Assembly: GCF_002574545.1 (NCBI RefSeq)
Contig: NZ_NUGT01000082.1
Location: forward strand, 1-64,000
Length of the DNA: 64,000 bases
Direction of reading: 5' to 3'
Source: Bacillus sp. AFS055030
GTDB taxonomy: Bacteria; Bacillota; Bacilli; Bacillales; Bacillaceae_G
Part shown: one piece after another, positions 4,688 through 55,388 of the stretch
How the letters are laid out: each line of letters starts with the position of its first letter
How positions within the stretch are numbered: position 1 is the first letter of the stretch
The notes under the pieces: model-generated
What the model saw: only the letters and a program-made list of their open reading frames with translations
What the model was told of the DNA's origin: nothing
Database searches by the model: none
Translations under genes and position numbers: made by a program

Positions 4688-5956
4688 TTAATCATTGAAT
4701 GATTTCATTCTTTGTAAAAGTAAACCATCACTTTTTTCATTTTCTCCGTATACAAACTGCGGCATATGATATTTTAAATACTGACCATATTTGCTATTTG
4801 TATTTAGTACTAATTCATCTACAAAGTAGGCACCATTTACTACAGTATCCAAACATAAACTAGCAACTCCTGCATATACTCCACATGCGACTTGAAGATA
4901 GGTTGCATTTGTACCGTAATTTGCAAATGAATCTTTATTGTTCATTACATTATAGATATAGCGCTCTTTATCTTCATACACGAGTAAAACTCCAACTACG
5001 TCCTCTCCTACTAATGGAGCTGTTGAAGGATCTAGAAGCTTTTTATCAAAACCCAATATTTCGTCAGTGTTTTTTAAATTATTTCTAATTAGATTCGTTG
5101 TATGCTCATTAACACGATACACAAAACCACTTTCTATGTTAAACAATTTGCCAATAATAAATACTTCTTCATGTGGCATAAGACAGCCATAAAAGACTTT
5201 TTCGCCCAATGTTACTTTAAATTCGACAGAATAAACATCATCATACAAGAAGATTGGAATATTTTGTTTAACAAACATAGGAAAGCTTGTGACTGCCTCT
5301 TCTAGGAAGCAATCTGGGGACCAAGTGGTGTATATTGTTTCTTTTTGAGCTAGTGAAGGGTTTTCATAAAAAGAATTATCATGTTCAACAATATAACATG
5401 CAAGAGGTTTTTCGGAAGGAAATTGGTTCATTAAATCGATTGCCATCCATTGTACAATTCCAGGATTCATCCCTGAACCAATAATGGCTGTAGTATTTTT
5501 AAACTTTCGTTTATTTTCCTCGAAGATACGTAAACGTTCTTTAAGCGGGAACCCGGAACTAATACTTTCATCTTCATCTACTATTTCACTTTCTAAAGCT
5601 GTGTTGACATACTTCACACCAAACTCATTACAACAGCGCAACATTTCAACAGAATCCGCTCTAGAAACATCAACTACAATAACTGTATTACTCTCTATAA
5701 GATGTTTTTTCATTAATTCACTATTATTAACATTCATTTCATGAAACGTAACTTTTTCTATTAGGTTAGGGATAATCCTTTCAAAATAAGTTATATCTTT
5801 TTGTTTCAAATCAATTAAATGAAACTTGGCATTTTTCATTATTAGATAAATCGGATCATTTTGATCCTTTGCCGCTTTATTAAATATAGAAAGTACTGCC
5901 TTTGCTACTCCGCCAGAACTACCTAATAGGGTAATAATCGCATCTTTTTCAAACAT
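4688..5956 (-). CDS. saccharopine dehydrogenase / homospermidine synthase-like protein
   Basis: NAD(P)-dependent oxidoreductase-like protein of 422 aa with an N-terminal Rossmann glycine motif, LLGSSGGVAKA (residues 10-20). SGMNPGIVQWM (about 161-171) and YTTWSPDCFLEEA (about 209-221) resemble the homospermidine synthase signatures GANPGMVS and NTWSVEGFISE, and TNATYLQVACGVYAG near the C-terminus fits the same family. Homospermidine synthase makes the polyamine from putrescine and is usually about 480 aa, so this shorter protein may have a different substrate. It is a single gene between terminators, start supported by TGGAGT 7 nt upstream. Family call fairly firm, substrate inferred. Confidence 0.6.
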   Translation of the reverse strand: MFEKDAIITLLGSSGGVAKAVLSIFNKAAKDQNDPIYLIMKNAKFHLIDLKQKDITYFERIIPNLIEKVTFHEMNVNNSELMKKHLIESNTVIVVDVSRADSVEMLRCCNEFGVKYVNTALESEIVDEDESISSGFPLKERLRIFEENKRKFKNTTAIIGSGMNPGIVQWMAIDLMNQFPSEKPLACYIVEHDNSFYENPSLAQKETIYTTWSPDCFLEEAVTSFPMFVKQNIPIFLYDDVYSVEFKVTLGEKVFYGCLMPHEEVFIIGKLFNIESGFVYRVNEHTTNLIRNNLKNTDEILGFDKKLLDPSTAPLVGEDVVGVLLVYEDKERYIYNVMNNKDSFANYGTNATYLQVACGVYAGVASLCLDTVVNGAYFVDELVLNTNSKYGQYLKYHMPQFVYGENEKSDGLLLQRMKSFND

Positions 5957-5997
5957 ATAAACAACTCCATAAATTGGTTTAATTTTAGCTATTACTT

Positions 5998-6024
5998 TAC
6001 TATATGAACCAATAGAAAAAGTGT
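5998..6024 (-). promoter_or_regulatory. possible sporulation (sigma-K/E type) promoter of the dehydrogenase gene
   Basis: CATATAGTA (6006-5998) fits the sigma-K -10 CATAnnnTA, with AC 16 nt upstream (6024-6023) as the minimal -35; it also approximates sigma-E. It lies about 40 bp before the start codon. These consensus sequences are loose and A/T-rich DNA gives chance matches. Confidence 0.3.
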
Positions 6025-6072
6025 TCGGACAAGTATCCTGTCGATCTATAACCTATGTTATCTTTTTAATTG

Positions 6073-6105
6073 AAAAAAAGCCTAACTAATAACTAGTTAA
6101 AAGCT
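6073..6105 (-). terminator. terminator downstream of the portal-like gene
   Basis: On the minus strand AGCTTTTAACTA and TAGTTAGGCT form an imperfect stem followed by TTTTTTT, just after the portal gene stop codon. This indicates a monocistronic transcript. Confidence 0.6.
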
Positions 6106-6119
6106 TCTCATTTTTCTAT

Positions 6120-7445
6120 TTAAGTATTTTTATCGTCTGGTTCTGGTTTCTCTAAAAGTTTCTTTTGTTCTTCCATACAAAACTCTTTAAATTTTTTGCA
6201 CTCTTCTATACACTCTTGTCTGCATTTTTCAATTTCTTCTTCGCGTTTCTTTTCTCTTTCAACACGTAATTCAAATTCCCTATCACGTTCTTTTTGATCG
6301 ATTGGGGCAGTATCATTTTTAAGAAGTGGAACGTTTCCTCTTTCAATTGGCCCAAGCCCCATCAAAGAGCGCCATTCGTTAGGTGTTAGAGAAGCTCTTT
6401 CTACCATAACTGTAAAGGCTAATTTTGTTGTGATAGATGCAAATTCTAAATTAGATGCTTCAAAAACAATACGATTACCATTTTTTCGTTCTGCAGGGGT
6501 AAAGAATTTGCGTGTAAACTCATTATTTAGCTGGATGACTAAAGGATTAATTACGGCTTCATTGTAAGTATTCCATTCAACCTCATTAAATGTACTTTGA
6601 ACAATTTTTTCGTTCGTATTAAAAAAACTATAGATTCGTCTGATTGCATCATTCGTTCTTTGTGCCTCTGGAGCATAATTACTTACGGGTACTTGTTGTA
6701 GTGTATAGATTGGCTCTGAAAAACCTGCTTTTACACCATCTCCAGTAAATTTCATATAATTGTTTACAAACTCATTCGTATTCGTAATCATATCTTCTTG
6801 ATCTAGTACTTCTTTAAAGTTTAATAACCAGTATATAAAGCGGTTTTTACTTACATTTTCAACAATACTGTCATCTACCGAATCAATCACTTCTAATAAC
6901 GGTAGTAAAGGATCATACGGGGGCGTGCCAAATAGATCATTACTATTAAAATCTTGTCTTAAATGAATGATATCGCTATAAGGTAAAATTAATACATTTT
7001 TCGTTTTGAATGTGAATTTTAAAAATATTAATCCCTGATTATTTTCGAGCACTTCAACTTTTGTACAAGGAATAGGAAAAATAGCGGTAGGATAACCAAA
7101 ATCATTTCGCTTAATAAATGCAAACGCATTACTGTTTAAATCAAGTTGCGTTACCATCTTCTCTAAAAGTAATTGTCTAGACATAAAGGGATTTGGTTCT
7201 TGCAGTACATTATAAATCCAGGGGTCAGGGTTAATCTTGCATTCTCTATTGTTTTCTCTAACATGTGTTACTTTTAGTTTACCAATCGCATTAGCTTTAG
7301 GTCTAATACATGCCCTGATCACATCATTCTTAAATAATGTATCGCCTAATGTTAATTGGCCATCCCCTTCATCATTTAATAACTCAAAAGAACTAGTACT
7401 TGATTGAAAATTCATTTTCCCCATTATCCAATCGATTAAGCCAAT
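6120..7445 (-). CDS. orphan HK97-type phage portal protein
   Basis: HK97-family portal protein, the dodecameric ring that docks terminase and passes DNA into phage heads. Family hallmarks in order: NDVIRACIRPKANAIGKL (about residues 40-57), LQEPNPFMS (81-89), LDLNSNAFAFIKR, LPYSDIIHLR, PLVIQLNNEFTRKFF, and LTPNEWRSLMGLGPIERG (353-370). The last 55 residues are a charged helical tail with four Cys. No terminase, protease, capsid or tail gene is nearby. The best ribosome binding site, AGGGGGGATTTAT, precedes an ATT codon (7445), giving the typical portal N-terminus (M)GLIDWI and 441 aa. The first ATG, at 7424, has no good site. Either ATT initiates or the start codon was lost. Apart from this the frame is intact. 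Confidence 0.82.
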   Translation of the reverse strand: MGLIDWIMGKMNFQSSTSSFELLNDEGDGQLTLGDTLFKNDVIRACIRPKANAIGKLKVTHVRENNRECKINPDPWIYNVLQEPNPFMSRQLLLEKMVTQLDLNSNAFAFIKRNDFGYPTAIFPIPCTKVEVLENNQGLIFLKFTFKTKNVLILPYSDIIHLRQDFNSNDLFGTPPYDPLLPLLEVIDSVDDSIVENVSKNRFIYWLLNFKEVLDQEDMITNTNEFVNNYMKFTGDGVKAGFSEPIYTLQQVPVSNYAPEAQRTNDAIRRIYSFFNTNEKIVQSTFNEVEWNTYNEAVINPLVIQLNNEFTRKFFTPAERKNGNRIVFEASNLEFASITTKLAFTVMVERASLTPNEWRSLMGLGPIERGNVPLLKNDTAPIDQKERDREFELRVEREKKREEEIEKCRQECIEECKKFKEFCMEEQKKLLEKPEPDDKNT

Positions 7446-7624
7446 ATAAATCCCCCCTAACTAGATGGCCATTGGTATAATTTATTATGGTATATTATTT
7501 TATTCTTTCAAAACTCTTCTATGCTACATTTTAGAATGAATTATTAAAACTCTTTAATTTTTATCGTTTTAAGATATGAGTTTACTATTTAGTTTATTCT
7601 AGAAAGTAATCGTGCACAAAAAGA

Positions 7625-47759: not shown

Positions 47760-47927
47760 AGTGTGTATACCGCAAAAGTGTAACCATAGCAAAACCTCCA
47801 CGAACTTTTCGAAAAAAAGACATGGAGGTTGTATATGCACGAATTTATCAGTTATACACCTCGGTAGGATATTAAGCTATAGCACCTACTGTCTACGGTA
47901 GTCTATTTAATTAGCAAGACAATCTCC
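47760..47927 (-). promoter_or_regulatory. L10 ribosomal protein leader with attenuator
   Basis: The minus strand carries GACAGTAGGTGCTATAGC, then CCTACCGAGGTGT, the pattern I know from the L10(L12)4-binding leader of Firmicutes. Downstream, AACCTCCA (47830-47823) and TGGAGGTTTT (47800-47791) form a terminator-like hairpin ending in a short T run. Binding of excess L10 is expected to favour termination. Confidence 0.8.
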
Positions 47928-55100: not shown

Positions 55101-55141
55101 AAAAAGCGTCCCTGTGTACATAAAATACACAGAGACGCTTT
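55101..55141 (-). terminator. T-box regulated terminator before cysE
   Basis: AAAGCGTCTCTGTGTA and TACACAGGGACGCTTT form a stem of about 16 bp (with a G-U pair) followed by TTATTTTT on the minus strand. It is the transcription terminator that the T-box antiterminator competes with. Confidence 0.92.
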
Positions 55142-55345
55142 ACGCGCGGTTCCACTCTGTTTAGATAAAATAAATTATCTCAACTCATGTAATATAACGG
55201 TTTCCACCGCCTTAGCCTACTAAAACGTATTTTTCGGCTAAGGACTCAAGGGGGCACTTCCATGATTATCGTTAAAATCACTTCCACCAATGTGATTCTC
55301 TCTAGGTAACGAGTAATCATTTACTTTTCCCTTTCAACATTTTAC
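55142..55345 (-). promoter_or_regulatory. Cys-specific T-box leader
   Basis: The T-box core AGAGTGGAACCGCG is at 55158-55145. Upstream are a stem I region and GGAAGTGCCCC, in which TGC (Cys) is the likely specifier codon; an AAGGCGGTGG segment follows. Uncharged tRNA-Cys is expected to stabilise the antiterminator and switch on cysE-cysS. The gap from gltX to cysE is entirely taken up by this system; a promoter in the A/T-rich start near 55370 is not clear. Confidence 0.92.
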
Positions 55346-55388
55346 CTATATGAATATTACTTATATATATTACAAATTAATCAAAATG

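Follow-up and report, generated by a model that had tools for sequence, protein, structure and literature searches.

The window (the whole stretch of DNA analyzed, 64 kb in length) contains an intact HK97-type phage portal gene that stands alone among host genes and is almost certainly a maintained host gene of some kind. We consider it likely that, genus-wide in Gottfriedia, a viral portal ring has been exapted and works in the absence of capsid and terminase, its role being that of a host scaffold or conduit whose tail binds a partner or that of an anti-phage poison subunit. Between these two, we somewhat favor a domesticated phage portal that works as a host ring scaffold or conduit.

The portal gene and its flanking signals

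The open reading frame (ORF) at 6120-7424 on the minus strand was matched by the Pfam family Phage_portal (PF04860; E value, 3e-41; 142 bits against a cut-off of 39.1) and by PHROG 12 (phrog_12), "portal protein," at an E value of 2e-58. In line with this, the description of an intact, full-length portal protein in an earlier note on this DNA was borne out. Judged by its sequence, the protein is homologous to HK97-type portals, yet its TIGR01537 (portal_HK97) score of 90.2 bits lies under the equivalog cut-off of 112.05 for a portal of the same function. The gene and the features beside it are the following.

6120..7445, minus strand: lone HK97-type portal gene, 434 amino acids (aa) from the ATG at 7424, or 441 aa if the start is the ATT at 7445
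7450..7459, minus strand: Shine-Dalgarno sequence TAGGGGGGAT, where most sister species have AGGGGTGAT
7484..7511, minus strand: candidate sigma-A-like promoter, TTGAAA-N16-CATAAT, with a surrounding block conserved in 10 species
6075..6109, minus strand: terminator-like hairpin and U run, 3' of the portal gene (-10.5 kcal/mol; z, -2.7)
4688..5956, minus strand: saccharopine-dehydrogenase/homospermidine-synthase-like gene, the downstream neighbor in 12 of 12 carriers

The ATT codon at 7445, which the earlier note took as the end of the gene, lies 4 nucleotides (nt) past a strong Shine-Dalgarno sequence. It sits in the place of a TTG that starts the portal gene in 10 other carriers, about 5 nt past a strong Shine-Dalgarno sequence; the start codon in G008 is CTG. 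One G is absent from the window at 7443-7448, at this conserved TTG start, which leaves either the ATT at 7445 or the internal ATG at 7424. The missing G could be a sequencing error, or the start change could be recent in the window strain, and the window copy may be poorly translated unless ribosomes start at the ATT or the assembly is in error. More generally, the non-ATG start suggests that expression of the portal gene is low.

Promoter-like matches near the gene were no more frequent than in shuffled sequences. The earlier note had also given the gene its own terminator; the U-tailed hairpin at 6109-6075 is present and conserved in 10 species, which upholds that part of the claim, but a simple terminator scan gave no call for it.

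Upstream of the portal gene lies a GlnK/GlnL-type two-component pair and downstream the dehydrogenase-like gene, so that the reported position between a two-component system and a dehydrogenase gene is correct on both sides. The dehydrogenase-like product matches its Pfam family only weakly, just under the cut-off (24.8 versus 25.1 bits). A strongly conserved block 5' of its gene, at 5957-6030, contains CATATAGTA, a candidate -10 element that looks, by eye, like those of sporulation sigma factors. Elsewhere in the window, Rfam identified a T-box leader (55128-55346, minus strand) and a ribosomal protein L10 leader (47780-47916, minus strand).

Distribution and descent in Gottfriedia

The earlier note had proposed a search for orthologues at the same locus, and these were found in 12 species. 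The portal gene is present in 12 of 13 Gottfriedia genomes, with 64 to 95% aa identity and an open frame in every carrier, and the named records that match it are all Gottfriedia or "Bacillus" genomes of that genus. Synteny is likewise retained in all carriers, where the portal gene directly precedes the saccharopine-dehydrogenase-like gene, followed by DUF2521-cwlD. No portal was found in G004, the deepest Gottfriedia branch, or in six genomes of the family's other three genera. At this locus, G004 and the four of these six that were examined have neither the portal nor the dehydrogenase gene; the other two gave no portal match, and in the four examined the rpsI-DUF2521 spacing is only about 130 to 435 bp.

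Two candidate observations were set aside. A 25% match in G004, which as an orthologue would bring the count to 13 of 13, adjoins a large terminase (TerL) gene (L088) and was rejected. An in-frame TAA in the prophage portal of G002 lies at the end of that gene, whose ORF is 385 aa.

In a tree of five neighbor genes, the 11 carriers included form one clade (support, 100/99) with G004 outside, and in the portal tree the 12 lone proteins form one clade (100/100) on a stem of 0.84. The simplest history suggested by these sequences is a single gain after the G004 lineage had split off, followed by vertical inheritance. Presence at the same locus in many species together with vertical descent, the pattern by which a domesticated gene is recognized, holds for this gene. 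Furthermore, a prophage at this site in a sister species, which according to the earlier note would have pointed to a remnant, occurs in none of them.

Purifying selection on the portal gene

The mean pairwise dN/dS of the portal gene is 0.084 (Nei-Gojobori) among 10 close species, for which pairwise dS ranges from 0.18 to 0.73 (mean, 0.48). Neighboring genes gave 0.083 (dehydrogenase), 0.082 (truA), 0.091 (glnK), and 0.036 (cwlD); a glnL value of 0.63 was an artifact of one misframed sequence (G005) and was discarded. Purifying selection on the portal is therefore comparable to that on host genes, as in a domesticated gene, and the dN/dS comparison that the earlier note had called for came out on the side of domestication. 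Along the window's own branch the value is 0.044 to 0.065, and the portal gene is therefore not decaying, the window strain included.

These values bear on whether the gene is a prophage remnant that happens to be unbroken still. Its phage origin and the one-base deletion at the window start codon would agree with such a remnant; however, twelve open frames, a mean dS of 0.48 at this dN/dS in ten close species, the shared locus, and an apparently single, old gain make it very improbable. Of the two readings left open by the earlier note, the very recent remnant is accordingly rejected, with 12 species sharing the locus, a dN/dS of about 0.08, a single old gain, and no sister prophage, and the same locus, selection, and gain uphold its other reading, that the protein has been kept for a new cellular role.

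A second possibility is that the gene is retained passively, or that its DNA or RNA has a regulatory role between the dehydrogenase and two-component genes. The blocks before and after the portal gene are conserved, and the same dehydrogenase gene adjoins it in all carriers, as this possibility would have it. In contrast, selection acts on the amino acids, and the portal is still found, with the dehydrogenase, in G009 (L071, 9912-10233), which has a fragmented gltT and no malS, glnK, or glnL. The dehydrogenase gene also occurs in genomes of the order that lack the portal, and we regard passive or regulatory retention as barely credible. A link between the portal and the GlnK/GlnL genes is not supported, because G009 keeps the portal without glnK and glnL. 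In G001, a gene that by eye is SelO-like (YdiU) lies between glnL and the portal gene (L072, 9242-10714).

The dehydrogenase gene is probably a mere neighbor of the portal gene and not a partner, because it occurs elsewhere in the order without a portal. We also considered that portal and dehydrogenase had been domesticated together as a pair, but rejected this because 21 of 300 order genomes carry the dehydrogenase, some of them family members that have no portal. G011 (L073, 5678-6943; 70% identity), G010 (L074, 6053-7309; 70%), and G001 (L075, 5195-6460; 55%) each hold a second dehydrogenase copy, none of which adjoins a portal gene.

Absence of phage partner genes

In all carriers the genes beside the portal are host genes. 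A tblastn search of the 64-kb window with phage TerL, Clp-type protease, major capsid, and tail proteins gave no match, confirming the earlier observation that the portal has no terminase, protease, capsid, or tail genes nearby. The genome-wide partner search covered two profiles alone among the terminase and capsid families, PF05065 (HK97 capsid) and PF03354 (TerL), both of which gave matches in control genomes. Neither profile was matched in 10 of the 12 carrier genomes, the window genome included; among the Gottfriedia genomes, both were found in G002, G004, and G007 only. One contig of G002 (C1; L076, L200, and L203) holds three HK97-type capsid loci and three terminases, of which one set is a CBP1-type prophage.

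Relatives of the portal were sampled from 399 order and 400 class genomes, in addition to an earlier 100 relatives. TerL was present in the stretch at 16 of 16 loci read in context outside Gottfriedia, a reading that left aside some weaker matches, for example G126, G265, and G290. The prophage relatives of the portal in G002 and G004 also adjoin TerL.

Phage gene sets are known to end up as gene transfer agents (GTAs), and the lone portal could belong to a dispersed GTA or act as a prophage helper that packages DNA with a capsid and terminase encoded elsewhere. Retention of the full portal fold, as modeled below, would suit such a role. However, the PF03354 terminase and PF05065 capsid are missing from 10 of the 12 carriers, and their pattern of presence does not match that of the portal, so that this explanation is largely refuted for HK97-type partners and is improbable overall.

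Predicted fold, remodeled surfaces, and the C-terminal tail

An AlphaFold monomer model computed from 77 sequences reached a pLDDT of 76 and a pTM of 0.63, with moderate overall confidence and with residues 1-28 and 226-234 below a pLDDT of 50; it superseded a first model from 33 close relatives (pLDDT, 49). The best Foldseek matches of the model in the PDB are the portals of GBSV1 (9i8c) and HK97 (8fql), at E values of 2e-17 to 3e-17, and the model thus suggests that the full portal fold is kept. The single window protein gave no match in a phmmer search against solved structures or in a first viral scan. Two regions of the gene are of interest here.

6675..6917, minus strand: first stem helix plus clip, placed at about residues 170-250 by aligning the protein with the HK97 portal
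6120..6305, minus strand: C-terminal tail specific to this lineage, the last 61 aa, beginning with PIDQK (KR, 28%; DE, 34%), Cys-bearing

Compared with about 32 related phage portals, the lone proteins have an identity of 0.26 to 0.32 at residues 181-200, 221-260, and 361-380, where phage portals share 0.56 to 0.77 with one another; over most of the remaining core, lone-versus-phage identity is about 0.4 to 0.64. All lone proteins keep 85 of 121 phage-invariant positions, including 43 of 49 within residues 34-169. The first stem helix retains a smaller share of them (2 of 7; P = 0.024), as does the C-terminal/crown segment 361-376 (1 of 5; P = 0.027), while the clip keeps 4 of 8 (P = 0.24, not significant); these P values are uncorrected, and the boundaries of the regions were drawn by hand on a moderately confident model. 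Within a portal, the clip is the docking site of the large terminase, the wing touches the capsid, and the crown meets the packaged DNA (PMC10359639).

A charged C-terminal tail of 46 to 72 residues is present in all 12 lone proteins and absent from their phage relatives, and in the window protein it is modeled as a single helix (377-424). When distant lone proteins are compared, its first part (381-400) ranks with the best-conserved stretches. In the phage portals inspected, the tail is mostly 13 to 35 residues long, with much Gly, Asp, and Glu. Taken together, sequence and model fit a protein that has kept its fold and core contacts, lost its match to the motor and packaged DNA, and gained a helix.

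Proposed role

We propose a single capture, after the split of G004, of a portal like those of Caldibacillus phage CBP1 and Clostridioides difficile phages, the gene having since been passed on vertically and on its own. Assembly of the protein into a portal-type ring has most likely been retained. Its surfaces that in a phage serve the terminase and the packaged DNA would have been remodeled; these are the first stem helix, the crown side, and probably also the clip. At the C terminus, the protein would have acquired a charged, helical tail, now conserved, for a new contact. We infer that the ring is most likely a low-abundance scaffold or conduit and that its tail binds a host partner.

Alternatively, the protein may act as a poison subunit: it would enter mixed rings with the portal of an HK97-type phage that infects the cell, or fill a capsid vertex, and, being unable to dock the terminase, make packaging fail. 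Endogenous retroviral Gag proteins restrict viruses, and a poison portal would act likewise. Conservation is highest in the wing and N-terminal core (the wing being the capsid contact; PMC10359639), and the first stem helix and crown side are changed, as this alternative would predict. CBP1-type prophages are also rare in carriers, with one in G002, among the few genomes available. On the other hand, the gene is core to 12 species with a dN/dS of 0.08, whereas defence genes are usually patchy and fast-evolving. Mixed rings are less likely because identity to the nearest phage portals is only about 41 to 52%, and no PADLOC model matched the gene. We therefore consider a poison subunit a plausible but rather unlikely explanation. 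Genus-wide retention with low dN/dS favors a household role over defence, and we place the host ring scaffold or conduit ahead of the poison portal.

Comparison with known portals

The portals of Caldibacillus phage CBP1, Clostridioides phage phiCD08011, Terrisporobacter phage TPDSL_ph2, and the G211 prophage belong to the same family and predicted fold as the lone portal, with 46 to 52% identity over nearly the whole core; that of the G211 prophage is the closest, at 52%. Unlike the lone portal, these four are encoded in terminase-portal-protease-capsid operons or adjoin a terminase gene, have no charged helical tail, and retain the motifs of the stem helix and crown. The HK97 (8cez and 8fql) and GBSV1 (9i8c) portals have the full portal fold in common with the lone protein (Foldseek E value, about 1e-17), but they are virion structural proteins with about 16% identity to it. 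A C-terminal helical extension, as in the lone portal, is also known from the P22 portal, where it forms a helical barrel (PMC4992974 and PMC5290284), while the tail of the lone portal is a short, highly charged, predicted helix. The portal Rcc01684 of the GTA RcGTA (6toa/6tba) is a phage portal kept by its host, with the same fold as the lone portal. GTA portals, however, come with capsid, terminase, and tail genes, none of which were found with the lone portal by tblastn in the window or, for capsid and terminase, by PF05065 and PF03354 in 10 of the 12 carrier genomes.

Domesticated phage tails and whole particles are known, and domesticated portals are known within GTAs, together with their partners. 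A literature search for lone, orphan, exapted, or domesticated portals found nothing relevant, which is weak evidence from open-access sources, and to our knowledge no portal has been described that is kept alone as a core host gene. The lone portal thus offers a clean, testable case in which a component of a large virus machine is parted from its former partners and recruited to a role in the host.
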